Shown piece by piece: positions 5,423 to 37,673 of a DNA stretch of 64,000 nt. Made by a program: the position numbers and the translations under genes. Every line of letters begins with the position of its first letter. The stretch's first letter is position 1. This DNA comes from a virus. The notes beneath the pieces are model-generated. The model had not been told where the DNA came from, made no database searches, and was given only the letters and a program-made list of their open reading frames with translations. The stretch is from positions 1 through 64,000 of IMG/VR virus record IMGVR_UViG_3300028883_000005; one strand, 5' to 3'.

Positions 5423-5457
5423 TTTATCTTGTTACCGTGTGTTATACTTGTTATATT
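5423..5457 (+). promoter_or_regulatory. TTTATC-family promoter 1
   Basis: TTTATC (5423-5428), TTGTTA (-35, 5429-5434), 17 bases, TATATT (-10, 5452-5457). It precedes the operon starting at 5499. Confidence 0.75.
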
Positions 5458-5498: not shown

Positions 5499-5765
5499 AT
5501 GAAACAATTTTTAAAGGTGGCTGGGGCAAGTGAAATAAGCATTTGGAGAGATGAAAAGACAGTTGAGAAAATTATAGTCGAGAAAATTATGGTAGAAAAG
5601 GGGGAGACAGAAAATTTGGAGGCATTGAAAAACTTGCGAGACGATGGCGAGTGCTTTCACATTAATGAGTTTTGCTGCGGTGATTGGGATAACTGTACTT
5701 GTGACCAAGAAAGTCGCAGCTACCAAACCATTTCTGACAACATTTTATATGTAGCTTTCACTTAG
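5499..5765 (+). CDS. Hypothetical protein with Cys-rich C-terminus, 88 aa
   Basis: The ATG at 5499 has GGAGGAGG eight bases upstream; the frame extends upstream without a site. The middle is a repeated EKIIVEKIMVEKG helix; the C-terminal part has CFHINEFCCGDWDNCTC, a possible metal-binding cluster. First gene of an operon of small early-type genes. No family recognised. Confidence 0.6.
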   Translation: MKQFLKVAGASEISIWRDEKTVEKIIVEKIMVEKGETENLEALKNLRDDGECFHINEFCCGDWDNCTCDQESRSYQTISDNILYVAFT

Positions 5766-5775
5766 GAGGTGAAAG
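5755..5775 (+). promoter_or_regulatory. Hairpin presenting the ribosome site of the next gene
   Basis: CTTTCAC (5755-5761) pairs with GTGAAAG (5769-5775), leaving TTAGGAG in the loop. The AGGAGG of the gene at 5777 spans loop and stem, and the stem ends one base before the start codon, so folding could modulate its translation. Confidence 0.5.
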
Positions 5776-5776
5776 A

Positions 5777-6220
5777 ATGGAAAAGCAGAGCATGGTGAAT
5801 GCGGTTTCTTCTTTCGGTTACAATCAATTTCATATTAATGATTTGATTGAGAAGTCAGGAAGAGGGAGGGGAGCGGTGAACTACTTTCTTCTGAAGGAAA
5901 TGAGCAATGGAAGAATCAAGAGAGTAGAAAAGGGAATGTACAAAGCAACCGCACCGATTAAAGAAAAAACTTCTGAAAAGAAGGAGGTTTCGGCGCTGGA
6001 GGTCGGGAACAGCATTATTGAGTTGGTGGAGTCACTGAGGGAGGAAATAAAGGAACTTAAAGAGGAAAAGGAGGAGCTGAAGGAGGAGGTGGAGGAACTT
6101 AAGGGTCTGATGGACGACTACGATTCGATTCTTAACTGCAACAGGGAACTTCAGGGGAGAGTGCAGGAACTTTCTTTGGAGATTGTTAGTCTTAAAGGCG
6201 AGAAGAAATTAGAAATTTAG
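5777..6220 (+). CDS. Winged-helix plus coiled-coil protein, 147 aa
   Basis: Residues about 10-57 form a plausible winged helix (FHINDLIEKSG, then GAVNYFLLKEM and a turn ending RIKRVEKGMYKA). Residues about 75-145 are a strong coiled coil with repeated EELKEE heptads. This build suggests a dimeric DNA-binding regulator. Start fixed by AGGAGG and the hairpin above. It is the second gene of the operon from the 5423 promoter. Confidence 0.65.
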   Translation: MEKQSMVNAVSSFGYNQFHINDLIEKSGRGRGAVNYFLLKEMSNGRIKRVEKGMYKATAPIKEKTSEKKEVSALEVGNSIIELVESLREEIKELKEEKEELKEEVEELKGLMDDYDSILNCNRELQGRVQELSLEIVSLKGEKKLEI

Positions 6221-6231
6221 GAGGTGGGAAA

Positions 6232-6483
6232 ATGAAAGTTATGTTTAAGGTAATAGAATGCGAAGAGGCAATTAACCAGGTTTACAACATATGCGACGAG
6301 TTTGATGTCGCAGTCTTCTGGGAGGTATGTGAGGAAAGGACGCTTTTCGCAGTGATAGAAAGGGTGGAGGGAGAAAAGTGGAAGGAGTTGGAAAGGAGGA
6401 TACAGGAAGTCTTCGGAGATGGATACGACGTTACGATTCTTCATTATGAGCTGGAGATTCTCGTGATTCACAGAAAACAGTAG
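6232..6483 (+). CDS. Hypothetical protein, 83 aa
   Basis: A small mixed alpha/beta protein that could be ferredoxin-like (strand, helix with EEAINQVYNIC, strand FAVIERV, helix, strand). Ribosome site GGAGGTGGGAAA before the ATG. A structured RNA (6484-6545) starts immediately after its stop. No family recognised. Confidence 0.6.
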   Translation: MKVMFKVIECEEAINQVYNICDEFDVAVFWEVCEERTLFAVIERVEGEKWKELERRIQEVFGDGYDVTILHYELEILVIHRKQ

Positions 6484-6545
6484 TTGGTTAGTTGGTTTCT
6501 GTGTGCTTTCTTGGAGGAGGAAGCACACAGACGGGAATTAACCAG
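6484..6545 (+). ncRNA. Structured leader element A (paired with element B)
   Basis: The outer helix pairs 6484-6493 with 6536-6545 (10 bp, two wobble); a 5x5 internal loop starts with GGTTT (6494-6498); the inner helix pairs 6499-6510 with 6520-6530 (11 bp, one bulge); the apical loop is TTGGAGGAG. Element B (7403-7456) has the same plan with different paired bases. It lies in the leader of the gene at 6565. Confidence 0.7.
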
Positions 6546-6564
6546 CAACTAGGGAGGTAGAAAA

Positions 6565-6867
6565 ATGAAGGCACAGGACTTGATAGATAGTCTGAGAAAA
6601 GAGGGAGTTGATTTGAACAAAACGGTTGCTGTTTCTAACAGCACAATGGCGGTTAATTACGAAGGAAGAGACGGATTGATAGTAGAAGCGGCGGTTCTGG
6701 GAATGGACGTTGAACCTCTTCTTAGAGTCACAGCAACGGAGGAGGACGATTGGTTTCAACCACACATTGTCATTGGAGAGCTGAGTAGACTTCGGTTTGT
6801 TTCTGAAGAGCTGGGAGACGATGTGTATGAAACAAGCTTGGAAGACTGGATTAAAGAGTGGGTATAA
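6565..6867 (+). CDS. Hypothetical acidic protein, 100 aa
   Basis: A mixed alpha/beta protein rich in Glu/Asp with no recognised motif. AGGGAGG ribosome site; its leader carries structured element A, so its expression may respond to that fold. Neighbours are small regulatory-type genes. Confidence 0.6.
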   Translation: MKAQDLIDSLRKEGVDLNKTVAVSNSTMAVNYEGRDGLIVEAAVLGMDVEPLLRVTATEEDDWFQPHIVIGELSRLRFVSEELGDDVYETSLEDWIKEWV

Positions 6868-6887
6868 CTAAAGGAGGTTGAAAAGAA

Positions 6888-7217
6888 ATGGAATATACGA
6901 TGGAGGAGGCAGCTAAGGCTGTAGGAAAAGAACGAATTAACTTGGTGATGTGGGAAAGGAGAGGTCTTATACCTTCTCCAGACCGCACAAAACGCCCCAT
7001 GACATTTAGTGCTGAGGAGGTTAGGCAGATAAAACTGTTTTCTATGTTGATGGACAGTGGGGTGGCTGGAGAGAACGCAGCTAGGCTGGCAGAAGAGCTA
7101 ATAGACTGGGAAGGTAAAGTCTTTATTTCTTTGGATGGTTGGTACATTGGAGAACTTAGAGCAGATGTTGAAATTCCAGTATCTGTTGCTCTGCTTATCA
7201 ACCTGGACGAAGTATAA
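6888..7217 (+). CDS. MerR-like helix-turn-helix protein, 109 aa
   Basis: The N-terminal 70 residues follow the MerR pattern: YTMEEAAKAVG (helix-turn-helix), NLVMWERRGLIPSPDRT (wing), then an R-x-F-S-AEEVRQI helix. The C-terminal part lacks a long dimer helix or Cys sensor of classical MerR and ends in a short alpha/beta domain. It may be an excisionase-like or transcriptional factor of the phage. AAAGGAGG precedes the ATG at 6888. Confidence 0.7.
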   Translation: MEYTMEEAAKAVGKERINLVMWERRGLIPSPDRTKRPMTFSAEEVRQIKLFSMLMDSGVAGENAARLAEELIDWEGKVFISLDGWYIGELRADVEIPVSVALLINLDEV

Positions 7218-7260
7218 TTCACATCTAACTACCTTCAAGAAAATAAAAGGAGGAGAGAAA

Positions 7261-7401
7261 ATGGCTAAGAATGTAGAGATCAAAAACGATGGTAATGGGA
7301 ACTCCTGGACTGTAACGGTAGGAAAGAGAGTACTGGCTAAGGGCGTAAAGTACGACTACGCCTGGTTCAGGAAGGTTTACTACGAGACCTTTGGGCAGTA
7401 G
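7261..7401 (+). CDS. Very small hypothetical protein, 46 aa
   Basis: ATG at 7261 behind AAAGGAGGAGAGAAA; an upstream in-frame extension overlaps the previous gene and is not supported. The product is basic and beta-rich (NSWTVTVGKRVLAKG). Structured element B begins two bases after its stop. Confidence 0.55.
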   Translation: MAKNVEIKNDGNGNSWTVTVGKRVLAKGVKYDYAWFRKVYYETFGQ

Positions 7402-7402
7402 T

Positions 7403-7456
7403 CTGTTGGTCGGTTTCTATGCTTTGCTTAGGCAGAGCATAGATGCAGATTAACAG
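7403..7456 (+). ncRNA. Structured leader element B (paired with element A)
   Basis: The outer helix pairs 7403-7411 with 7448-7456 (9 bp, two wobble); the 5x5 internal loop begins with GGTTT (7412-7416), identical to element A; the inner helix pairs 7417-7427 with 7432-7442 (11 bp, one wobble); the apical loop is TTAG. Paired positions differ from element A while pairing is kept. Confidence 0.7.
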
Positions 7457-7479
7457 GTCATCTAAAAAGGAGGTTAGAA

Positions 7480-7797
7480 ATGGATAAAAAAGATTTGATA
7501 GAGGCTATAGATTCTATGGCAGAGGTGATGGGCTTCTCTGTAGAAAAGACGGTGTCTGAGGAATCGGAGTCTGAAGACTCAACCACAGGTTCTAATAGTG
7601 TCGTTTATTTAGTGGTGGTTCGTGTGGATGTTCAAGAGTTTAAAGAGTTTGAAGAAATAGACCAGTTCTGCGATGGTGTAAAGACTTACCTTTTCCTGAG
7701 ACATGGCTTCAACAGTTTTCGTATTGTCTCGATGAGACACCTGATGAAGCCTGGAATTATGCAAGTATCCTTTCTTATGAGAGAATTTGGAGGCTAA
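7480..7797 (+). CDS. Hypothetical protein, 105 aa
   Basis: An acidic, Ser-rich insert (SEESESEDSTTGSNS) splits a small alpha/beta domain with VVYLVVVRVDV. AAAGGAGG precedes the start and its leader holds element B. No family recognised. Confidence 0.6.
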   Translation: MDKKDLIEAIDSMAEVMGFSVEKTVSEESESEDSTTGSNSVVYLVVVRVDVQEFKEFEEIDQFCDGVKTYLFLRHGFNSFRIVSMRHLMKPGIMQVSFLMREFGG

Positions 7798-7799
7798 TT

Positions 7800-8012
7800 A
7801 TGTCAGAAATTTGGCTAGGTTCTATTAAAGATACCAGATGTCCAGGATGCAACAAATGGAGACCGTGTTCCAGGATTATCCCTTTAGTAAATAGTATCGA
7901 ACTCCATTACCATTGTGTATGCAACAGGAGTTGGATTTTCCGTTTGCCTATTCCTGACAAGCCAGATGTTGTATATGCCCACACGAAGGAAGGTATTAAA
8001 ATAATAGCCTAG
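7800..8012 (+). CDS. Small zinc-ribbon-like protein, 70 aa
   Basis: CPGCNKWRPC and a later CVC give at least four Cys suitable for zinc. The ATG at 7800 lies two bases after the previous stop, within reach of that gene's end (GGAGG). Function unknown. Confidence 0.6.
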   Translation: MSEIWLGSIKDTRCPGCNKWRPCSRIIPLVNSIELHYHCVCNRSWIFRLPIPDKPDVVYAHTKEGIKIIA

Positions 8013-8036
8013 AAAATTCTTCCTGAGGTAGAAAAT

Positions 8037-8071
8037 ATTATCTTGCTATTTCTTTGATTATTAGTCATTTT
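8037..8071 (+). promoter_or_regulatory. Weak TTTATC-family promoter candidate
   Basis: ATTATC (8037-8042) and TTGCTA (8043-8048) match the family, but at the family spacing the -10 would be CATTTT (8066-8071); a better TATATA sits five bases further on. Confidence 0.4.
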
Positions 8072-8098
8072 ATATAGAAAAAGACTTGAGGAGGTTAA

Positions 8099-8275
8099 AT
8101 GAGAAGATATTTGGTCAAATGCTTATACGATTATAGCCAAGTAGTAAGGAGAGAAATTAACTTGGACCACTCTAAAAATAACGTCCCTAAAGAATATCCT
8201 TGCATTGTGGTGGTAGGATACTCGGGGGCTGGGTGGGATGAGTTAATTTTTATTTACCCTTCAGAATTCAACTAG
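8099..8275 (+). CDS. Small hypothetical protein, 58 aa
   Basis: ATG at 8099 behind AGGAGG. The translation starts MRRYLVKCLYDYSQVV and ends with IFIYPSEFN. It is mixed charged/hydrophobic without a known motif. It lies between a candidate promoter and the gene at 8285. Confidence 0.6.
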   Translation: MRRYLVKCLYDYSQVVRREINLDHSKNNVPKEYPCIVVVGYSGAGWDELIFIYPSEFN

Positions 8276-8284
8276 GAGGTTAGC

Positions 8285-8524
8285 ATGACCACAATCAAAA
8301 GACACACTCCCTACAATGAAAAGCTCGCCGAGCTGATGGAGGCTATGATGGACAGCAATAGGAGGGTAGGGGAGGCTATTGAAGGTTTCGAGGAGGCGGT
8401 AGAGGAAAATACAATTAAAGGAAGCCGCGACCCTGAAGACCTACCTTTAATAGAGCAAGACTATGATAAATGGAAGATAGAACTAATCAAATCTGTATTA
8501 GACATGAGGGAAGGACTAGGATAA
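8285..8524 (+). CDS. Hypothetical acidic helical protein, 79 aa
   Basis: Mostly helical (EKLAELMEAMMDSNRR, EAIEGFEEAVEEN). GGAGG five bases upstream of the ATG. No family recognised. Confidence 0.55.
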   Translation: MTTIKRHTPYNEKLAELMEAMMDSNRRVGEAIEGFEEAVEENTIKGSRDPEDLPLIEQDYDKWKIELIKSVLDMREGLG

Positions 8525-8542: not shown

Positions 8543-8577
8543 TTTATCTTGTACTCTCCAGTTATAGTTGTTATAAT
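8543..8577 (+). promoter_or_regulatory. TTTATC-family promoter 2
   Basis: TTTATC (8543-8548), TTGTAC (-35), 17 bases, perfect TATAAT (-10, 8572-8577). Precedes the gene at 8613. Confidence 0.8.
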
Positions 8578-8612
8578 TAAACTAAGAACAACTATAACGA
8601 GAGGGGGACAGG

Positions 8613-9564: not shown

Positions 9565-10125
9565 ATGAAAAAGGAAAATAATCTTTGGATAGACGAAAAA
9601 GGAAACTCTTGGGATTCTGCTGCTTACACAGAGGAGGAGGCAGCAGCAGCCTCTATGTCCTGCCACGACTGCCGCTACTGCCGCAACTGCCGCAACTGCC
9701 ACAACTGCCACGACTGCCACAACTGCCACTACTGCCACAACTGCCGCGACTGCCACGACTGCCGCTACTGCCACAACTGCTACAACTGCCGCAACTGCCA
9801 CAACTGCCGCAACTGCCGCGACTGCCGCAACTGCCGCGACTGCCACGACTGCCACTACTGCCGCGACTGCCGCGACTGCCGCGACTGCCACGAATGCCGC
9901 GACTTCGAAAAAAACCCAGCGAGATATACCAGCTCGCCTATAGGATCTAGAAAAGGACAAACAACAACCTACTGGGACTTAAACGGAAATAATTTGGTAG
10001 TTTGCGGATGTTTTTCAGGTACGCTGGAGGAGTTTGAAAGAGCCGTAGATCTCACTCATCAAAACAACCTATACGGAAAGGAATACCAAGAATATATAAA
10101 ACAAGTGAAAGCACTGATTAAATAA
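9565..10125 (+). CDS. Protein with 27 Cys-x-x triplet repeats, 186 aa
   Basis: After a 32-residue start, residues 33-113 are 27 uninterrupted triplets of form C-(H/R/Y)-(D/N/Y/E). The remaining 73 residues form a separate domain with SSPIGSRKGQTT, a VVCGCFSGTLEEFE block and a YGKEY helix. The triplet block gives a Cys every third residue with His and Asp, suited to bind many metal ions or to form a stacked beta-helix-like rod; neither is shown. The DNA is a 9-bp tandem repeat (9661-9903), likely variable in copy number. AGGAG precedes the start. The C-terminal domain is probably the functional part. Confidence 0.7.
   Translation: MKKENNLWIDEKGNSWDSAAYTEEEAAAASMSCHDCRYCRNCRNCHNCHDCHNCHYCHNCRDCHDCRYCHNCYNCRNCHNCRNCRDCRNCRDCHDCHYCRDCRDCRDCHECRDFEKNPARYTSSPIGSRKGQTTTYWDLNGNNLVVCGCFSGTLEEFERAVDLTHQNNLYGKEYQEYIKQVKALIK
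9661..9903 (+). repeat. 27 tandem copies of a 9-bp coding unit
   Basis: The unit is TGCC(A/G)C(G/A/T)AC with few exceptions, in frame, encoding the Cys-x-x triplets of the gene at 9565. Confidence 0.9.
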
Positions 10126-11650: not shown

Positions 11651-12466
11651 ATGAAATTAGTAAAGTTTGAGGAGCTGCCCAGGGTCGAGGCGAGAGCAAT
11701 TAACATCGATGACAGATTCATCGAAGGCCATCAAGCAATTTGGAACCCGGATACCGGCCATGTTTTCTGCCTCCCAACAGACGAGTATAAACTCGTCTCC
11801 CACCAAGAAATGATCGAAATGACAGAGGAGAAGATAGCTTCCTTCTCCCATCTGGGAAAGTATGAAAGAGAAATCAGGATGGATGGGGAAGGTGAAAGAA
11901 TGAGGGCGGTGTTTCGTTTCACTGAGAACAAAGTGATGATCCAAAAAGGCGATCACATCAACCCCACGGTGGAGATCTTCAACTCTTACGACCGAAGCTG
12001 GAAGAACCAAGTGATGATCGGAGCTTTTCGACTCGTTTGCACAAACGGTCTCACCATCGGAGAGACTTACGGAAGATTCAAAAAGCGCCACATCAAGTCA
12101 TTGAGTCTGGACGAGGTCGACGGCATTCTCGAGAGTGGGTTCGACAAGCTGGACAAAGTTGCCATCGAGTGGAAGGATTGGCGCAAGGAGAAGATGGAAC
12201 CCAAAGCAGTGGAAGATGCTGTGAAGCAGCTGGCACTCACTACCAAAGAGGAAGCACTCCTCTTGGAAGAGGAAGAGGTGTCCACCCAAATTTCCGTAGA
12301 GGATTGGCTGCTATTTCAAGAGCTGCAGATGAGGAAGGAAATGTGGGGAGTGATGACCAAGTGGGTATTCTACAACATCCTCACTCAGTTCATCACACAC
12401 CAGATCAACACCGAAAAGAGAAGGATGCAACTTCAATCCAAAGTAACGGACATCTTCTACAACTAG
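11651..12466 (+). CDS. DUF932-type protein, 271 aa
   Basis: The central pattern, a strand with VEIFNSYDRSWKNQ followed by FRLVCTNGLTIGE, is the signature of the DUF932 / phage-plasmid-like family found on many phages and plasmids; its biochemical role is not established. Start at the ATG at 11651 behind AAAGGAGATGCATC. The DNA is more GC-rich and codons (AAG, GAG, ATC, CTC) differ from neighbours, as in the SSB gene, which suggests strong expression under the promoter at 11576. The last 90 residues are helical and acidic. Confidence 0.7.
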   Translation: MKLVKFEELPRVEARAINIDDRFIEGHQAIWNPDTGHVFCLPTDEYKLVSHQEMIEMTEEKIASFSHLGKYEREIRMDGEGERMRAVFRFTENKVMIQKGDHINPTVEIFNSYDRSWKNQVMIGAFRLVCTNGLTIGETYGRFKKRHIKSLSLDEVDGILESGFDKLDKVAIEWKDWRKEKMEPKAVEDAVKQLALTTKEEALLLEEEEVSTQISVEDWLLFQELQMRKEMWGVMTKWVFYNILTQFITHQINTEKRRMQLQSKVTDIFYN

Positions 12467-12629: not shown

Positions 12630-12665
12630 ATTCTAGGGTGCCCTTCCTGGGATTTAGTTTTCTCG

Positions 12666-12698
12666 CTGCCCGTCTTTACTCGGAGTTTAGGCGGGCAG
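12666..12698 (+). other. Hairpin after the 12477 gene
   Basis: CTGCCCG (12666-12672) pairs with CGGGCAG (12692-12698) across a 19-base loop. No T-run follows, so termination is doubtful; it may protect the upstream mRNA. Confidence 0.4.
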
Positions 12699-12740
12699 TA
12701 GGAAAACTAAACAGATATGCAACTAAGTGGGAGGTGTATA

Positions 12741-16546: not shown

Positions 16547-17746
16547 ATGGTAACAGATATGGAATACAGAGAACTTCTGTGTGAGAGAATACTTTTGATG
16601 GTAAAAATAAGCCCTGTAGGATTTATAGGAGATAACGAAATTCTGTCTCTAATTTTAGGGGAACAGGTGGAGGAGGTGTCTTCTGTTCTTTTAGAAATGG
16701 TAGAAACAGGTCTTGTGTTCCGTTGGTTTGATAAAGACAGCAGTACTCGTGTGCTTTCCTTGTATTCTCCAGAAGAAGAAGAAAAGTTCACCTCCAAAGA
16801 AAAGAAAGAAAGAAGCAAAGAAAGAAAAGAAATATATACCTATTTATCTTCATATTATCTAAGAAATAAAAGTTTGCTTCGCAAACTTTTATTCTTACAT
16901 AATACTCAGAAAACAGGTATTAAAGGATTCTGCAAATCCTCGGAGCTCGCCCAAGAGGAGGAGTTTGCAGAAGAAGAAACAGTCCTCACACCTGCTCCTA
17001 AAAAGGAGAAAATGATTGTTCCAGGAACAATAACCTCTATAGTAAATTTTTGGAACAATCTAGGATTAAAAACCTGTTATATTAAAGATACAGAGGTATT
17101 TCGTAAAACTTGGAAAAAAATAAATGATGCAAAAAGAGGAACCCTGTTTTCAAATGATACTAGATTACAAAACAGGAGGTTCTCCTCAGAAGAAATAACA
17201 GAGTCCATCAAGAACTTCTCTTTAGCTACTTTAGATTCACATTACTTTCCTGTTCCTAACTCCCCTCTAAAAAATATCTATTTAAAAACAACATTGGAAT
17301 CCTTCCTGTATAACCCCTTCGCTAAGTCTGTGGAAGGTTTAAGCTATCTGTTAAAATTCCAAGAAAAGCCCAGATTATTAGAAACCTCAATACCTCTGTT
17401 AGAAGATAAGTATCCTAAGATAACTAAAATATATCAAAGTTTTTACTCTAATAAAGCACTAGGAGGAACTTTAAAAGAAGATAAGATTTCTCCTAAAGAG
17501 AAGAACAAGTTTATAGACGGTGCCAATAAAACCGTAGATTTCTTCAAAGAAAACAGAAACAGATTTCTAAATTACTCTGTAATGGGCGGTGTTAATACAG
17601 AGAAAATGGCTCGTTGGGTGTGTGAATCTATCGAGAATGACATTGAAGATGGGAGAGTTTCTTTATCTCCTGGTTTCTTTTGTTCTGATTATACTTTTTC
17701 GAGAAGATTACCTGCTTATTTAGTTAAACAAGGAATTTGGGAATGA
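16547..17746 (+). CDS. Possible replication initiator or helicase loader, 399 aa
   Basis: No motif is diagnostic. Residues about 1-70 look like a winged helix (helices ending in VSSVLLEMVETGLVFRWF). Residues 80-110 are very charged, and the rest is helical with a VNFWNNLGLKT stretch seen in phage replication proteins with a C-terminal helical domain. It lies between primase and DnaB-like helicase and overlaps the helicase start as ATGA, the position of loaders/initiators in many phages. The function is inferred from context. No clear ribosome site precedes the ATG at 16547. Confidence 0.5.
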   Translation: MVTDMEYRELLCERILLMVKISPVGFIGDNEILSLILGEQVEEVSSVLLEMVETGLVFRWFDKDSSTRVLSLYSPEEEEKFTSKEKKERSKERKEIYTYLSSYYLRNKSLLRKLLFLHNTQKTGIKGFCKSSELAQEEEFAEEETVLTPAPKKEKMIVPGTITSIVNFWNNLGLKTCYIKDTEVFRKTWKKINDAKRGTLFSNDTRLQNRRFSSEEITESIKNFSLATLDSHYFPVPNSPLKNIYLKTTLESFLYNPFAKSVEGLSYLLKFQEKPRLLETSIPLLEDKYPKITKIYQSFYSNKALGGTLKEDKISPKEKNKFIDGANKTVDFFKENRNRFLNYSVMGGVNTEKMARWVCESIENDIEDGRVSLSPGFFCSDYTFSRRLPAYLVKQGIWE

Positions 17747-19290: not shown

Positions 19291-19648
19291 TGTATGCAAA
19301 ATATTTGAGTTTCACGCCGCACATCACCTCCCTCATTACTCTGGCAAATGTAGAGAGGTTCATGGTCATTCCTACACACTTGAGATTGAGATAAGTGGAG
19401 AGGTGGGCGCTTGGACTGGAATGATATGCGACTTCTCTGAGCTTAAAAAGAAAGTTGAGGGTGCTATTATTTTCCATTTAGATCACAAAGATCTGAATAT
19501 ACTGATGGAAAACCCCACCGCCGAAAAAACTGTGGAGCTTATTGTGAGTAGGAAAAATCAGTATGTTCCAGACGGTGCAGAGCTAGAAAGGGTTCGTCTT
19601 TACGAGACCCGCACAAGTTTTGCAGAGTGGAGGAGGGAACAACAATGA
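19280..19648 (+). CDS. queD: 6-carboxy-tetrahydropterin synthase (QueD)
   Basis: 122 aa. FHAAHHL at 11-17, C24 as the catalytic Cys, HGH at 28-30 for zinc with the upstream His, LDHKDLN at 67-73 and the ETRTSFAEW end, all as in QueD of the T-fold family. It converts dihydroneopterin triphosphate into 6-carboxy-tetrahydropterin, the second step of preQ0 synthesis. AAGGAG lies six bases before the ATG. It opens the deazaguanine cluster, overlaps queE (ATGA), and follows the replicative helicase closely. Confidence 0.9.
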   Translation: MKISVCKIFEFHAAHHLPHYSGKCREVHGHSYTLEIEISGEVGAWTGMICDFSELKKKVEGAIIFHLDHKDLNILMENPTAEKTVELIVSRKNQYVPDGAELERVRLYETRTSFAEWRREQQ

Positions 19649-20328
19649 ACAGAGGTAAAACAGACTTTTGCTCAGCTCCTTTATGGGAGGTTTTCACTTC
19701 TATAGACGGTGAAGTGAACAATATAGGTCAAGGGGTTTTGAGTAAATTCATAAGAGTAGCAGGATGCAATCTCCACTGCTCTTGGTGTGACACTAAAATA
19801 ACGCAAACGGTTCCTAAAGAAGCTTCTTGGGAAAACTCTGCAAGTATGATGAGATCTGGTATTATAGGCAGAGACCACGTTCAGAAATACACCATCACAG
19901 GGGGCGAGCCGCTTCTTTACCCAGAGTGGGTTAGAGAAGTGGTGAACACTCTAGTAGCTCTGGGTAAGAGCGTGTCTGTAGAAACAAACGGTTCTAGAGT
20001 TCTAGTACCAGGATTAGACTGCTGCTGGGTGATAGACGATAAGCCGCCTTCTTCAGGTCATCTGGGTAGTTTTGTATACAGCAATTTGTGTACGATGAGA
20101 GAAGGAAGAGACTGGATTAAAATTGTAATAGCAACACAAGAAGATTTAGAATGGGCTATCGAGGAGACTAAATATATAAGTAGCAGGATTGGTAAGGCAA
20201 ACATCGCTTGGAGCTTATCTGAAACTTGTGAGGTTGAAGCTAAACATATCATTAGCGTTTTACTGGAAGAAAGCCTGCATTATGTTAGAATTAATGCCCA
20301 GCTTCATAAGTACTTAGGATTATTGTAA
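19645..20328 (+). CDS. queE: 7-carboxy-7-deazaguanine synthase (QueE, radical SAM)
   Basis: 227 aa. The cluster-binding CxxxCxxC is C41, C45, C48 (CNLHCSWC), followed by TITGGEPLLY, a SVETNGS strand and DDKPPSSG, all typical of QueE. It contracts the ring of 6-carboxy-tetrahydropterin to 7-carboxy-7-deazaguanine. The N-terminal VFTSIDGEVNNIGQG fits the family's substrate side. Translationally coupled to queD. Confidence 0.9.
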   Translation: MNRGKTDFCSAPLWEVFTSIDGEVNNIGQGVLSKFIRVAGCNLHCSWCDTKITQTVPKEASWENSASMMRSGIIGRDHVQKYTITGGEPLLYPEWVREVVNTLVALGKSVSVETNGSRVLVPGLDCCWVIDDKPPSSGHLGSFVYSNLCTMREGRDWIKIVIATQEDLEWAIEETKYISSRIGKANIAWSLSETCEVEAKHIISVLLEESLHYVRINAQLHKYLGLL

Positions 20329-20483: not shown

Positions 20484-21098
20484 ATGTTGAGCCCAGAATT
20501 CTGCAATGCAACATCCGTTCGGAAAGAGATTGGCGCGCTGAACAAGTGCGGCGTGCTGGCCGAAAAAGTGAAAGCTGTCGGAGTGGCCAAGAAGGAGTTG
20601 GTGGAGTCTTTCCTGAAGGCCGTGGAATCGGTTCCCGAGGGCACCGAGGAAGCCAAGAAGATCCCTGCTTCCGTCATCAAGCTCTACAATGAAATCGTTG
20701 AAGGTGTTGATCCTTCGCCGGAAGAGCAGGAAAAGCTCAAGGCCGCCAAGACCAAGAAGAAGGACGCCAAGCCCCGCGGCCCCAGCAATGAAGCCAAAGC
20801 TCTGGAAATTTTCACCGAATCTTTCAAGGCCGGCCTGGACGACGCAGCAATCAAGGCCAAGATGACCGAGTACTTCAAACCGTACTATGAAGCTCGTGGA
20901 AAGGGGGATCAACCGGATTTCATCGAGAAGCGGGTGGGCATCTATACCAACATTGCCAAGAAGCAATACTTTGCCGCCCATCCCGACGAGGCTCCCAAAA
21001 AAGAGGAAAAGCCTCCGAAGAAGGAAACTGCCAAAAAGGATGCCGCCAAAGACGAGAAGGCCGCCACCGGCGAAGAGGAAGCGCCCACGGAGGGGTAG
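20484..21098 (+). CDS. Lys/Ala-rich probable nucleoid-type protein, 204 aa
   Basis: Residues 1-160 are helical; the last 40 are a disordered Lys/Glu/Pro/Ala tail (KKEEKPPKKETAKKDAAKD, then acidic). The gene is strikingly GC-rich with AAG, GCC and GAG codons, unlike the AT-rich genes on both sides, and has its own promoter, long leader and AAGGAGGAA site, which points to high expression. It sits between queE and folE. A DNA-coating or processing protein is conceivable, but no family is recognised. The folE ribosome site lies in its last codons. Confidence 0.6.
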   Translation: MLSPEFCNATSVRKEIGALNKCGVLAEKVKAVGVAKKELVESFLKAVESVPEGTEEAKKIPASVIKLYNEIVEGVDPSPEEQEKLKAAKTKKKDAKPRGPSNEAKALEIFTESFKAGLDDAAIKAKMTEYFKPYYEARGKGDQPDFIEKRVGIYTNIAKKQYFAAHPDEAPKKEEKPPKKETAKKDAAKDEKAATGEEEAPTEG

Positions 21099-21099
21099 A

Positions 21100-21690
21100 A
21101 TGGACCGGAGCCTAACTGAGCAATATCTTCAGAAGGCTTTAACTGAGGGGTTGGGGCTTGATATTAAAGACCCCAACCTCTCAGGAACTCCTGGGCGCAT
21201 CGCTAAGATGTGGACCCAGGAGTTTTTCTCCTCTTTAGAGCATCCTGAAGGTTTCGACAATCTCACTTCCTTTCCTAATGATAGGGAGTATGATCAAATA
21301 ATCCTATTAGATAAGATCCATTTCGTTTCCATGTGTTCCCATCACTTTCTGCCCTTCGCTGGTATAGCTTGGTTAGGTTATATACCTAAAGGGCAACTCG
21401 CTGGAGCTTCAAAGCCTTCACGCCTGATTAACTTTTACTCCAAGAAACCGCAGCTTCAAGAACACCTCTCTCATGAGATTATCGATTGTTTCAATGAAAA
21501 GATAGAACCTCAAGGATGCATTGTTGTAATGCGTGGTATCCATGGCTGCATGAGTAATCGAGGGGCCCTCCAGTATAATGGAAGTGGTATGACAACCTCC
21601 GCAGTTAGCGGTGTTTTCAGAGATGACAGCAAGGCTAGGTCTGAGGTTATGGACCTAATAAAAATATCCTTAATGATCCACGAATTGTAA
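21100..21690 (+). CDS. folE: GTP cyclohydrolase I (FolE)
   Basis: 196 aa. Zinc ligands C79, H82 and C150 lie in the signature blocks SMCSHHFLPF and RGIHGCMSNRG; GYIPKGQLAGASKPSRL and the QLQEHLSHEI helix are also classic. It makes dihydroneopterin triphosphate from GTP, the entry step for QueD. The frame is open far upstream but the ATG at 21100 has GGAGGGG four bases before it. Supplying a FolE suggests that pathway flux, not just a scavenged precursor, matters to the phage. Confidence 0.92.
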   Translation: MDRSLTEQYLQKALTEGLGLDIKDPNLSGTPGRIAKMWTQEFFSSLEHPEGFDNLTSFPNDREYDQIILLDKIHFVSMCSHHFLPFAGIAWLGYIPKGQLAGASKPSRLINFYSKKPQLQEHLSHEIIDCFNEKIEPQGCIVVMRGIHGCMSNRGALQYNGSGMTTSAVSGVFRDDSKARSEVMDLIKISLMIHEL

Positions 21691-21713: not shown

Positions 21714-22064
21714 ATGGATAATAAAATCTACGCTCGAATCATCATTAATTTTCAATTTGAAGCTTTACACTCTTGGCCGGGGTGTTCTCTTTTGGACGTA
21801 AGTTTCCTTAAGAACGCCCATCGCCATGTTTTTCATGTAGAGATGAAAAAATTGGTGATGCATGACGATCGAGATATAGAATTTATACACTTCAAAAGAG
21901 AGGTTTTGAGGTGGGTGAGAGAGAACTGGGAAGAAAAAGATCTAGAATCTAAATCCTGCGAAATGATCGCTACCCATCTTCTTCTCTTATTTGAATGTGA
22001 CTATGTAAAAGTAATGGAGGACGGAGAAAATGGAGCAGAAGTCTTCAAGGATCATAATAATTGA
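21714..22064 (+). CDS. Second QueD-like T-fold protein, 116 aa
   Basis: A strand with NFQFEALHSWP, then FLKNAHRHVFHVEM and HDDRDIEFIHF, and a later SCEMIATHLLLLF with EDGENGA. This matches the PTPS/QueD-like proteins carried by many phages: H19 and H36/H38 could bind metal, while the QueD catalytic Cys context (GKCxxxHGH) is missing. It may act on a pterin or deazapurine intermediate or assist the neighbouring radical SAM enzyme. GGGGGTCGA precedes the ATG at 21714. Confidence 0.65.
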   Translation: MDNKIYARIIINFQFEALHSWPGCSLLDVSFLKNAHRHVFHVEMKKLVMHDDRDIEFIHFKREVLRWVRENWEEKDLESKSCEMIATHLLLLFECDYVKVMEDGENGAEVFKDHNN

Positions 22065-30468: not shown

Positions 30469-30899
30469 AAGTTTTCCTGGCAGGAGTTCCCGCAGGCAAT
30501 CAAGCTGTTAGGGAGCATCACTTAAAAGCGATGGGTGCCAATAATCGCCTAACTACCTTTTACTATTTGAGGCAGGCAAAAATAACTATGAAAAAATATA
30601 AAGGTCCAGGTAAGGTGGTTCATTGCAAACGGGAACAATTTGATGTTTATATAGGTAGAACAAATACCATGCATCATTACGGAAACCCCTTTGTAGTGGG
30701 CACTCACGGAGATGCTTTTAAATGTGTATCTAATTATAGAAGATGGCTAACTACAAATGCATACCCACACTTAGAACCAGAGAGGAAAGCCTGGATACTA
30801 TCTAGGGTCAAAACCCTCAAAAACAAAAGGCTGGGCTGCTTCTGTACTAAGCCGCCCTGTCACGGATTTATTCTTTTAGAGTTGGCGGAGAAGTCATAA
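30465..30899 (+). CDS. MK-x-FLAG domain fused to DUF4326, 144 aa
   Basis: Residues 1-35 are the MK-x-FLAG signature (MKVFLAGV, NRLTTFYYLR). Residues 40-144 match DUF4326: FDVYIGRTNTMHHYGNPFVV, a YRRWL helix, LKNKRLGCFCTKPPCHGFIL. DUF4326 is a small domain of phages with conserved G-R, G-N-P-F and Cys/His residues suited to an active site; its activity is not established here. It is the only fused member of the four-gene family. Confidence 0.7.
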   Translation: MKVFLAGVPAGNQAVREHHLKAMGANNRLTTFYYLRQAKITMKKYKGPGKVVHCKREQFDVYIGRTNTMHHYGNPFVVGTHGDAFKCVSNYRRWLTTNAYPHLEPERKAWILSRVKTLKNKRLGCFCTKPPCHGFILLELAEKS

Positions 30900-33583
30900 T
30901 GGCACTTAAAGGTTTTTTCCAAATAGAATCTACTGAACCTAGAAGGAATGCTAATAAAGAGCTTTTGGATAAAAGATATAACCATCCTGGCGATCCGGAT
31001 TGCTCTAGCTGTGGATTAGATAAAAAAGGATGCAAAAGGCCCAGGATACCTGTAACAGGAAATGGTAGAAGAAACATTCTAGGGATAGCAGAAGCTCCTG
31101 GGGCCACCGAAGACACACTAGGGAAGAATTTAGTGGGGGAGGCTGGTCAGTTTCTGGAAAAAAGTCTTAAACCTCTTGGGATTGATCTTCATAGAGACCT
31201 TTACTTAATAAATTCTGTAAATTGCCGTCCTCCTGAGAATAGAAAGCCTACAGATCATGAGTGCCTGTGTTGTCGTCCTTTATTGCTTAAAACCATCGAA
31301 GAGATAAAACCAGATCATATATGGTTATTTGGAGGAACTTCGGTAAGTACTTACATTAGAGATAGATTCAAAAACACAACAATCAGCAGATGGGTAAATT
31401 TACCCTTCCCTGACCCTGAAAATGGAGCTTGGGTTACTGCTCAATATCATCCTTCTTTTGTGATGAGAGGAAAAAACGATAATCTCAGAGCTATAAACCA
31501 GATATATCTCAAAAAAGCAGTAGGCCGTCTATCTTGGAATCCTTACGAGTTTCCTGACTTTGACAGTCAGGTTACTATTTTATTAGAATTTAAAAAAATA
31601 ATCTTCCATCTTAAAAGGATACTTAGAACTAAGCCTTCGATAACTATTGATTATGAATCCACAGGTGTGAAGCCATATAAGATTGGTCATAAGATCTATT
31701 GTGTAAGTATAGATGATGGAGATCAAAGCTATGTGATTCCTTTGCAAAGGCCTGGGTATTGGAAAGAGGAAGAATGGTCAGAAATTCATCGTTTATATGT
31801 AGAAATTTTGGAAGATCCTAAAATATTAAAAACAGCTCAAGGTAGAAATTTCGAGGACTCCTGGTCATCTGTTGTTTTAGGTGCAGATGTTAAAGGTTGG
31901 GATTGGTGCACTATGACAGCCTCACATCTTATAGATAGCAGAGAGAAATTCACAGGTCTGAAATTTCAAGCTTTCTTAAGATTTGGAATAACAGGTTATG
32001 AGGAAGAGATTGCACCATATCTGAAGTCGGATAAAGGAGAGGAATTTAACAATATTCATAATGCCCCTCCCGAAAAGCTACATCACTATTGTGGACTAGA
32101 TACAGTAAATACCAGAGAGCTGAAAAAATGGCAAAAATCCTTTTTTGATAGGCACCCAAAACTCGAAGCTGCCAGACAATTCACGATGGATGGTTTGGAA
32201 GCTCTAATGAGTGTGCAAAATGAAGGAATCGTAGCAGACAGGGCTTATTACGACGAGCAAAATGCTTTTCTAGGGGATGAGATAGAAAAATTAACATTAC
32301 AGATTTATCAGTCTAAGGAGGCAGAAAAGTTTAAAAAGAGAACAGGAAAGTCCTTTAACTATAAATCTTCTCAAGACTTACAAATTCTGTTTTTTGATAT
32401 TTTAGGGTATACACCAAAAAAGTTCACCAATAAAGATGAAACCAATGCATCGGTAGATGCTGAAGTTGTGAGTTCTATTAATTCACCTATAGCTAAAAAA
32501 ATTCTTCGTGTAAAGAAGCTCTACAAAGTAAAAAACACCTACTTGGCACAATTCTTCAGGGAAATTACTGAAGAGGGCAAGATACACCCTGTTCAGAATC
32601 TTCATATAGCTACCACACATAGAGGATCTCAAGATCATCCTAATTTTCAAAACATACCAGTTCGAGATGAGGAGTCTAAAAAGGTGTGCAGATCTGGTAT
32701 CGTTGCTTCTTTAGACCCTGAAGAGCCTGTTAGGCTAGGAGAAAAAGATTATGGGTCTCAAGAAGTTAGGATAATTGCTTGTTACTCTGAGGACCCTGTT
32801 TTAATAGATTATATTAATGATCCTACTACGAACATGCATCGAGATGAGGCGGCGGCCTTATTTATCCTACCTGAAGAAAGAGTAAGCAAAGATATCAGAT
32901 TTTATGCCAAAAACTGTTGGGTGTTCCCTCAATTTTATAAAAGCTGGTATGGAAGTTGTGCTAAGGATTTACAAAAGAACGTTATCATTCCTAATTTAAA
33001 AACAGCAGACGGTGAAAAGATACAGGACCACCTTAAGTCTAAAGGAATTTATACAGAGCAGTCTTTCGAGAATCATTGTAAAAGGATGGAGAGTGCTTTC
33101 TGGGACAAATACAAAGGTGTAAAGAAATGGCAAGATAAAACAATTAAAAAATATCTAGAGCAGGGGTACGTGGGGACTTTCTTTGGTCATAGAAGAACAG
33201 GTTTCTTGTCCCCTAACGAGATTGTGAATAGCCCTATTCAGGGCACAGCATTCCACTGTTTGCTTTGGACGTTAAAGAAAGTTAAAGATAGAATTAAGGA
33301 TTTAGGCTTCCGTAGCCGACCTAACAATCAAATACATGACTCCATTAAAAGCAAAATATATGTTGAAGAGCAAAACGAATATATCCAAATGGTAAAAACA
33401 ATTGCCGAAGATGAAATCAGAGAGCAAAATGGTTGGTTAATTGTACCACTACTATTAGAAATAGAGTTATGTCCTATAGGAGGAAACTGGTATCAGAAAG
33501 AGGAAGTGTTTTTTGAAGGCGGCACATGGGTAAGTAAAAACAAGGACGGTAGCATTAAGAACGTATACGATGAAAATTTCTAA
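30899..33583 (+). CDS. Family A DNA polymerase fused to a uracil-DNA-glycosylase domain, 894 aa
   Basis: Residues 30-200 are a family 4/5-like UDG: Cys for a 4Fe-4S cluster (C35, C38, C45 and C122-C125), EAPG at 65-68, NSVNCRPPENRKP and HPSF at 184-187. Residues 245-415 are a 3'-5' exonuclease (D251, E253 in DYESTG). Residues 440-890 are the polymerase: motif A is DYGSQEVR (D617, where DYSQIELR is usual), motif B starts RFYAK at 667, motif C is IHDS (H813, D814; the usual E is S815). It replicates the phage genome with the clamp and loader. UDG-like N-termini are known on some phage polymerases. Stop of the previous gene overlaps the start (TAATG). Confidence 0.88.
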   Translation: MALKGFFQIESTEPRRNANKELLDKRYNHPGDPDCSSCGLDKKGCKRPRIPVTGNGRRNILGIAEAPGATEDTLGKNLVGEAGQFLEKSLKPLGIDLHRDLYLINSVNCRPPENRKPTDHECLCCRPLLLKTIEEIKPDHIWLFGGTSVSTYIRDRFKNTTISRWVNLPFPDPENGAWVTAQYHPSFVMRGKNDNLRAINQIYLKKAVGRLSWNPYEFPDFDSQVTILLEFKKIIFHLKRILRTKPSITIDYESTGVKPYKIGHKIYCVSIDDGDQSYVIPLQRPGYWKEEEWSEIHRLYVEILEDPKILKTAQGRNFEDSWSSVVLGADVKGWDWCTMTASHLIDSREKFTGLKFQAFLRFGITGYEEEIAPYLKSDKGEEFNNIHNAPPEKLHHYCGLDTVNTRELKKWQKSFFDRHPKLEAARQFTMDGLEALMSVQNEGIVADRAYYDEQNAFLGDEIEKLTLQIYQSKEAEKFKKRTGKSFNYKSSQDLQILFFDILGYTPKKFTNKDETNASVDAEVVSSINSPIAKKILRVKKLYKVKNTYLAQFFREITEEGKIHPVQNLHIATTHRGSQDHPNFQNIPVRDEESKKVCRSGIVASLDPEEPVRLGEKDYGSQEVRIIACYSEDPVLIDYINDPTTNMHRDEAAALFILPEERVSKDIRFYAKNCWVFPQFYKSWYGSCAKDLQKNVIIPNLKTADGEKIQDHLKSKGIYTEQSFENHCKRMESAFWDKYKGVKKWQDKTIKKYLEQGYVGTFFGHRRTGFLSPNEIVNSPIQGTAFHCLLWTLKKVKDRIKDLGFRSRPNNQIHDSIKSKIYVEEQNEYIQMVKTIAEDEIREQNGWLIVPLLLEIELCPIGGNWYQKEEVFFEGGTWVSKNKDGSIKNVYDENF

Positions 33584-36414: not shown

Positions 36415-37588
36415 TCGGGAAGACCTGGTAAACCAGCTTAGAGAGAGAGCTCAGGAAAGCTACAAAAGCAAAGATGAAGGAGGTAAATACGGAAAGTATT
36501 ACCGATCCCCACCACTACCTGAATGGAAATGCTCTGAAGGTGAGCATGTGATTGACATCCTTCCTTTCTTTGCAGGTGAGAACTACCCCACCAAAAGCCA
36601 TGCAAGTCAAGGAAAACCGGTGGACCCAGGTAAAATTCTTTACTGGCTGGATGTATGGATTCATTCAAAGATCGGCGTAAACGAAGATAACGTGGTTTGC
36701 CCTTCTATGAGCTACGGCAAGCGGTGTCCCATCTGTGAAGATGTGGCGGCGGAAAGCAAAAAGCCTGCGAATCTCAAGGACGAAGCTTTCATAAAAGACA
36801 CCAAGGCAAAGCGCCGGTCTATGTATCTGATCGTTTGCAGGGATAGCGAATCCGAAGAGAACAAGGGCGTGCAGGTCTTCGAGGTAGCTCATTTCTATTT
36901 GGAAAAGCACATCTCTGCCCTGGCGAAGAAGCCCTTCGGTGGTGGATTTCGTTTGTTTTCGAATCCTTACAACGGCCAATCTGTTTACTTTTCCAAAAGT
37001 GGAACAGGGATGGGGCAGGAATGGTCCGGGTTTCAATTTCTTGATCGCGATTATGCCATCTCGGAAGAGCATCTGGATGTTGCGGCAGCTACTCCTCTGG
37101 CAGACTTCCTGATCCTTTTGGGTTACGAAGAGCTTTGGGAGAAATATTACGGAAAGCCCTTCGATGGAAGTTCTGCTAAGAGCCCCTCTGACTCTTCAAA
37201 TCCTGACTACCAGCCCAAAACTAGGGCTCCCAAAGAGGATCCACCTGAGGAGGCTAAAGAGGCTACGACTAGACCAACTAGGGCTCCGAAAGAGGAACCT
37301 GCTAAAGAGGATCCGCCCTCTAGAACTACCAGAGCCCCGAAAGAAGATCCACCCTCTAGAGCCACCAGAGCTCCGAAAGAGGAACCCCCCGAAGAGGAAC
37401 AACCTGTTCGGAGAACACGGAGACCCCTTCAAGAGGAACCTGCTGAAAAAGAACAGGAGTCTTCAGCCAAATGCCCTGGTGGTGGAGTATTTGGCAGAGA
37501 CATTGACAAGCTCTCAGGATGCGGACCTTGTGAACTATGGGACGATTGCGCCATAGAAGCACAACGGCTAGAGCAAGAAGGTAAATAA
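36404..37588 (+). CDS. Single-stranded DNA-binding protein, gp32-like, with long Pro-rich tail
   Basis: 394 aa. The core (1-255) has a zinc-type Cys set (C99, C108, C111: CPSMSYGKRCPIC) as in T4 gp32 relatives and an OB-fold-like beta region (GVQVFEVAHFYLEKHI). Residues 270-350 are a disordered tail of TRAPKE(D/E)PP repeats. A second Cys motif ends the protein (CPGGGVFG, CGPCELWDDC). Codon use is GC-richer than in neighbours, in line with an abundant protein. It coats ssDNA for the replisome and RecA. The tail end (PVRRTRRP) resembles the RecA start at 37674. Confidence 0.8.
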   Translation: MKFNREDLVNQLRERAQESYKSKDEGGKYGKYYRSPPLPEWKCSEGEHVIDILPFFAGENYPTKSHASQGKPVDPGKILYWLDVWIHSKIGVNEDNVVCPSMSYGKRCPICEDVAAESKKPANLKDEAFIKDTKAKRRSMYLIVCRDSESEENKGVQVFEVAHFYLEKHISALAKKPFGGGFRLFSNPYNGQSVYFSKSGTGMGQEWSGFQFLDRDYAISEEHLDVAAATPLADFLILLGYEELWEKYYGKPFDGSSAKSPSDSSNPDYQPKTRAPKEDPPEEAKEATTRPTRAPKEEPAKEDPPSRTTRAPKEDPPSRATRAPKEEPPEEEQPVRRTRRPLQEEPAEKEQESSAKCPGGGVFGRDIDKLSGCGPCELWDDCAIEAQRLEQEGK

Positions 37589-37592
37589 CTTT

Positions 37593-37657
37593 CTTGGGCC
37601 CCCTGCCTGAATAGGCGGCGGTAAGCGTGGGGCTGAATCGCTACAAGGGGGCCCAAG
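37593..37657 (+). ncRNA. Three-way-junction RNA in the recA leader
   Basis: Outer helix 37593-37603 with 37647-37657 is 11 perfect base pairs (CTTGGGCCCCC). Inside are hairpin 2 (37605-37608 with 37613-37616, loop GAAT) and hairpin 3 (37621-37627 with 37639-37644, one bulge, 11-base loop). Joining segments are 0-3 bases. Four more pairs (AACT/AGTT) can extend the outer helix. It ends about 16 bases before the recA start, so it could regulate recA or stabilise the SSB message. Confidence 0.65.
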
Positions 37658-37673
37658 TAGTTTAGGAGGAGTC

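Follow-up and report, generated by a model that had tools for sequence, protein, structure and literature searches.

The question raised by this locus is what function, if any, is served by two strong hairpins located in gaps between small virus genes. The window analysed covers bases 1 to 64,000 of a virus record that is 82,575 bases long. In a first-pass annotation, two RNA leader structures sharing one plan were described in it, an outer and an inner helix separated by an internal loop, and three possible roles were offered for them: a regulator, an RNase site or the target of a bound protein. Refolding confirmed two hairpins of a common two-helix plan at essentially the positions claimed, here designated E1 and E2 (Table 1). 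The label of leader was found to be imprecise, as both are intercistronic elements inside one apparent operon.

Table 1. Positions of the two hairpins and of the genes and signals around them.
Feature	Position	Strand	Description
Promoter-like motif P1 (TTGT...TGTTATATT)	5426..5457	+	ahead of the gene cluster
Gene upstream of E1	6232..6483	+	83 aa, orphan
UAG stop of gene 6232-6483	6481..6483	+	its G opens the E1 outer helix
Hairpin E1	6483..6546	+	outer helix 11 bp, 4x4 internal loop GGUU/CGGG, inner helix 15 bp, GGAG loop
E1 internal loop, 5' side	6494..6497	+	GGUU, common to E2
Shine-Dalgarno GGGAGG of gene 6565-6867	6551..6556	+	outside hairpin E1
Gene downstream of E1	6565..6867	+	100 aa, orphan
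MerR-type helix-turn-helix protein	6888..7217	+	109 aa, PF13411 E=1.4e-8
Gene upstream of E2	7261..7401	+	46 aa, orphan
UAG stop of gene 7261-7401	7399..7401	+	its G opens the E2 outer helix, with weak pairing
Hairpin E2	7401..7458	+	outer helix 11 bp (basal pairs weak), 4x4 internal loop GGUU/UGCA, inner helix 12 bp, UUAG loop
E2 internal loop, 5' side	7412..7415	+	GGUU, common to E1
Shine-Dalgarno AGGAGG of gene 7480-7797	7468..7473	+	outside hairpin E2
Gene downstream of E2	7480..7797	+	105 aa, orphan
Promoter-like motif P2	8546..8577	+	just after the cluster

Several structural details had to be redrawn. The outer helices, earlier given as 10 and 9 bp, do exist and both reached 11 bp once the G of the UAG stop codon was counted (GUUGGUUAGUU/AAUUAACCAGC with arms at 6483-6493/6536-6546 in E1, GUCUGUUGGUC/GAUUAACAGGU with arms at 7401-7411/7448-7458 in E2). 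The internal loop had been read as 5x5 because one closing U-A pair was left out: the last U of 'GGTTT' is paired to an A at a probability of 0.95-0.99, which makes the loop 4x4. Its 5' side was correctly recognized as common to both elements, and the inner helices, described as 11 bp in both, proved to be longer (Table 1). The AGGAGG site announced after both hairpins was present after E2, and E1 was followed by a GGGAGG variant. The total helix length amounted to 26 bp in E1 and 23 bp in E2, about two turns, nearly uninterrupted and on the transcribed strand. The fold energies calculated with flanks were -39.8 and -34.9 kcal/mol, the corresponding z-scores were -8.18 and -5.78, and none of 200 shuffled sequences folded as well. 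In a context of 180-660 nt the helices formed with high probability; only at the base of E2 were one to four pairs weak.

The rarity of this architecture was assessed with a descriptor (inner helix of at least 10 bp, outer helix of at least 9 bp, loops of 3-6) scanned over both strands of the 82,575-base record. E1 and E2 were the only matches, and five shuffled copies gave none. An unbiased z-score scan of the record in 72-nt stretches also placed both among its strongest structures. Other structures noted in the record include a near-perfect palindrome at 16853-16904 (AATAAAAGTTTGCTTCGCAAACTTTTATT core) within the ORF 16547-17746, with the strongest z-score of the record (-12, - strand). A + strand hairpin at 21819-21860 (8 bp, 2x2 loop, 8 bp, z -6.8) occupies the gap between the ORFs ending at 21690 and starting at 22030, and another one, at 8548-8612 (+), overlaps P2 just before the next gene and has a 12-bp inner helix, a 2x2 loop and a z-score of -5.1. 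At 37590-37665 (+), a branched RNA, closed by a helix of 12 bp and carrying two hairpins inside it (-43 kcal/mol, z -3.7), fills the gap from the stop at 37588 to the Shine-Dalgarno site of the RecA-like gene 37674. An ORF at 9565-10125 (+) carries a long tandem cysteine repeat of the CRDCHDCRNC type, and strong hairpin scores were obtained on its antisense strand.

The helix sequences of E1 and E2 were said to differ and yet stay paired, which was borne out by the alignment: 12 of the 23 aligned pairs were identical, both bases had changed in 7 and a single base in 4. In the internal loop, the 5' side was identical and the 3' side had one base in common. The most conserved part was the 5' side of the loop together with the flanking UCU/AGA pairs (GGUUUCU...AGA), and both helices drifted. 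Permuting the pairs and loop letters of E2 indicated a similarity beyond architecture (P ~0.0003). A covariance model of E1 scored E2 at 40.4 bits and E1's own antisense at 40.1 bits, so that much of the E2 score reflects a generic hairpin and is not to be over-read. The third-best + strand match of this model (14.5 bits, E 0.3) was an intergenic hairpin at 12653-12711, located in the gap after 12629 and built of 11 bp, a 1x1 mismatch and 11 bp (z -5.9); it has no GGUU and is possibly a further processing site.

Covariation had been put forward as the mark of a selected fold. Taken alone, covariation between only two sequences says little, because aligning any pair of strong hairpins will produce it. 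That E1 and E2 represent a selected RNA fold is well supported by their energy, uniqueness in the record, common loop, pairing kept through changes of the helices, placement and strand. The level at which it acts was indicated by 4 G-U pairs in E1 and 5 in E2 and by antisense folds weaker than those of the + strand, which point to a + strand RNA and not to a DNA palindrome. The same data bear on the idea that E1 and E2 are a duplicated mobile DNA palindrome, REP-like or a small inverted repeat, sitting by chance after CAGTAG stops. The sequence CAGTAGT does precede both elements and the record has other strong palindromes, such as that at 16853-16904, but E1 and E2 exist in two copies only, with strongly diverged helices and none found elsewhere by pattern searches of viral and genome contigs, and the 4-5 G-U pairs of each would be mismatches in DNA, which together with the weaker folds of the other strand makes such an origin very improbable. 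A REP-type repeat in the strict sense, which requires many near-identical dispersed copies, was rejected on the two diverged copies.

E1 and E2 are located inside a run of ten small + strand genes extending from 5499 to 8524. The gaps in this run were 2-43 nt long with the exception of 81 nt (E1), 78 nt (E2) and 86 nt (8013-8098). Among the first seven genes, the only gaps of about 80 nt were those containing E1 and E2, the remaining ones being 11-43 nt. No hairpin was detected by the energy or descriptor scans in the third large gap. A BLASTP comparison of the genes flanking E1 with those flanking E2 revealed no paralogy, and no significant similarity between the two downstream genes was detected. 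The motif TTGT-N(16-20)-TGTTATAWT occurred in only two copies in the 82.6-kb record, P1 and P2, at 5429-5457 and 8549-8577 immediately on either side of the run, with a chance expectation near 0. The bracketing of the cluster by these promoter-like sequences suggests that the ten genes may be read as one transcript, which E1 and E2 would split into groups of 3 + 3 + 4.

No G+C-rich stem followed by a T tract was found on the + strand between 5200 and 8800, and the tails following the hairpins, AACTAGGG and CATCTAAA, were devoid of a T run. As the T tract is absent after both elements, they are not terminators, and an intrinsic terminator was ruled out as an explanation.

Both hairpins begin at the stop codon of the upstream gene and end 19 nt (E1) and 22 nt (E2) before the next ATG. 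The Shine-Dalgarno sites located in between were 64-96% unpaired in a context of 180-660 nt and are not buried by the hairpins. Hairpins of such stability, set immediately at the stop codon and leaving the Shine-Dalgarno sites exposed, would suit passive insulators or stabilisers. These would shield the upstream mRNA at its 3' end, or make the downstream mRNA more stable at its 5' end, and would prevent translational coupling, no dedicated nuclease being involved. A plain hairpin, however, needs neither a common 4x4 loop with GGUU nor the similarity beyond architecture measured above, and this explanation seems quite unlikely.

The position at the stop codon might also mean that a helix 3' of UAG promotes readthrough and joins the neighbouring genes. 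The linkers 6481-6565 and 7399-7480 are indeed in frame from UAG to ATG over 28 and 27 codons, and no stop codon other than UAG occurs in them. Each linker is nevertheless interrupted by a second UAG, UAG is in regular use as a stop (11 of 39 genes), the window yielded no suppressor tRNA and the ribosome would melt a helix that begins right at the stop. Readthrough is therefore barely credible, and the reading frame of the two linkers is probably a coincidence.

To find relatives, E1 and E2 were compared with the 4227 families of Rfam, and no match at the gathering threshold was obtained; the sub-threshold matches were generic long-hairpin microRNA models only. A known Rfam family was consequently ruled out at the curated cut-offs. 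Viral contigs were queried with the 100-aa and 105-aa downstream proteins, the DNA polymerase, the RecA-like protein and a polymerase alignment, the last also against genome contigs. These queries returned relatives of the polymerase only, on records of 8, 24 and 50 kb, in which the E1 model had no match. The relatives were few in the viral collection, with the nearest at 41% identity. The pattern GGTTTCT..AGANGNNRATTAAC gave 37 viral matches and the pattern GTTRGTYGGTTTCTNTG 97, and a longer form gave three matches in genome contigs; none of these folded into the E1/E2 plan and all seem to be chance matches. The search of annotated phages by DNA and by protein also yielded no meaningful match. 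The family thus comprises two members, with no third homologue found in the collections searched, and the neighbouring proteins tested are orphans, the MerR-type protein excepted.

Other genes of the record also deserve mention. The DNA polymerase of family A is encoded by one ORF (30899-33583, +) together with an N-terminal domain of the uracil-DNA-glycosylase superfamily (PF03167, E 7e-20). A radical SAM protein is encoded near GTP cyclohydrolase I (19627-20328 and 20887-21690, +), a combination that hints at synthesis of 7-deazaguanine bases or at DNA modification.

A loop sequence kept constant while the helices change would be just as compatible with recognition by a protein. It could be proposed that E1 and E2 are cis-regulatory RNAs binding a protein or a ligand, in which a phage or host protein reads the GGUU loop and the UCU/AGA pairs and controls the translation or stability of the downstream genes together. 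The conservation of the 5' side of the loop and its flanking pairs amid drifting helices agrees with this proposal, the cluster encodes a MerR-type protein and many orphans, and two targets ahead of two orphan genes would suit a regulon. On the other hand, the Shine-Dalgarno sites and starts are outside the hairpins, the 3' sides of the loops differ (CGGG vs UGCA), no alternative switch fold was seen and Rfam offered no match at its curated cut-offs. A regulatory RNA of this kind is possible, if somewhat unlikely.

Among the three roles offered earlier, the RNase site is favoured, as a candidate and not as a demonstrated site, through a comparison with the RNase III sites annotated in phage SPO1. 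As a positive control, the early modules of SPO1 and SP82G, which serve host takeover, were subjected to an energy scan of the type that detects E1 and E2. A family of two-helix hairpins of about 62 nt emerged, with six copies per genome, variable paired helices and a conserved GCTAG/CATGGAG internal loop. The structure of the SPO1/SP82G alignment predicted by RNAalifold misplaced the outer helix and individual folds were used instead; a covariance model (R2) built from seven copies recovered 12 of 12 at 59-75 bits. Four of the six SPO1 hairpins coincide with RS-A, RS-B, RS-C and RS-D of the RNase III sites RS-A to RS-E annotated in AF031901 (coordinate offset 1691). RS-E is absent from the family, and not every annotated site has the two-helix plan. 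Three of the six SPO1 copies (RS-C, RS-D and 12221-12282) hold the UAG stop of the preceding gene within the 5' strand of their outer helix. From the end of the hairpin to the next ATG there were 23-45 nt in all six, a stretch containing an AGGAG-type or G-rich site. RNase III sites of SP82 early mRNA are attributed to Panganiban and Whiteley 1983, as cited in PMC12502629. Two family copies in SPO1, 12221-12282 and 5796-5858, carry no RNase III mark in AF031901, and the former overlaps a feature labelled terminator TL2.7.

The SPO1/SP82 hairpins and the E1/E2 pair are alike in being two-helix structures of about 60 nt in gaps between small genes, in several copies per module, with a conserved internal loop amid variable paired helices and a free Shine-Dalgarno site downstream. 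As in half of the SPO1 copies, the upstream UAG stop is held at the foot of the outer helix. The loops differ, GCTAG/CATGGAG in SPO1/SP82 and GGUU/NGNN here; the inner helix is about 10 bp in SPO1/SP82 vs 12-15 bp in E1/E2, and the SPO1 outer helix is shorter and interrupted. Model R2 misses E1 and E2, which places them outside the SPO1/SP82 sequence family, and the E1 model run on SPO1 detected one family copy, not an annotated RS site, only at E 0.58. E1 and E2 share the design of the SPO1 hairpins and not their sequence, and are a probable new instance of the processing-hairpin class, not members of that family.

Stem-loops located just after a stop codon between small phage genes are also known from the T4-type 'PeSL' promoter/stem-loop cassettes. 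E1 and E2 likewise directly follow a stop codon between small genes, but no promoter adjoins them and their fold is not terminator-like. Five T7 sites (R0.3, R0.5, R1, R1.1 and R1.3) were folded at what we take to be their cut positions. The early RNase III sites of T7 resemble E1 and E2: they are irregular intercistronic hairpins some 60 nt long, in which an internal loop separates a lower from an upper helix. The T7 loops are asymmetric and of other sequence, in contrast to the symmetric 4x4 loop found here, and the lower helices of T7 are interrupted, unlike those of E1 and E2. R1.1, between genes 1 and 1.1, measures 60 nt and its internal loop is 4/5 (PMC6121014).

On helix length, E1 and E2 fit the functional class of phage intercistronic processing hairpins, the cleavage itself being putative. 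We consider it probable, by analogy with these phages, that both are intercistronic processing sites for the host RNase III. A long mRNA of early type would start at P1 (about 5457) and run through the ten small genes, and the gaps before genes four and seven would fold into the two-helix hairpins of 23-26 bp. Host RNase III may then bind the stacked helices and cut in or near the conserved internal loop, dividing the message into pieces of 3 + 3 + 4 genes. Each piece would have a hairpin-derived end and an exposed ribosome-binding site, and the cutting would set the ends and stability of the three mRNA pieces. The single transcript, its early timing, RNase III as the enzyme, the cut position and the effect on expression are what we infer for this locus. 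The fold alone cannot prove the enzyme, because RNase III has little sequence specificity. No RNase III or dsRNA-binding domain was found in the virus record by a search in which the controls were detected. The enzymes of B. subtilis and E. coli show stereotyped cutting within helices with similar base-pair preferences (PMC11780869); since they cut alike, a host enzyme could serve for E1 and E2.

The position of the stop codon allows a variant of this proposal. A ribosome halted at UAG would sit on the 5' strand of the outer helix, and when the 13 nt at the start of the element were omitted from the fold, the inner helix alone remained. This helix is short as a substrate of RNase III, so that translation might govern whether the message is cut. 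Carried further, E1 and E2 may be an undescribed kind of RNA, in which the terminating ribosome melts the outer helix and leaves an inner helix of 12-15 bp too short for RNase III. Cutting or binding would then take place only on messages not translated to the end, and the cut would report the translation of the upstream gene; the SPO1 sites with a stop in the helix would be the same idea reached independently. This version appears unlikely.

If host RNase III does process these hairpins, a phage lineage without close relatives in the searched collections would use the device known from SPO1 and T7, built around its own loop sequence, from which it would follow that intercistronic RNase III processing arose or diverged several times. 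E1 and E2 would also provide a compact pair of substrates with natural compensatory variation. The presence of the stop codon inside the outer helix, here and in half of the SPO1 copies, hints at a possible built-in link between the movement of ribosomes and the cutting of mRNA.
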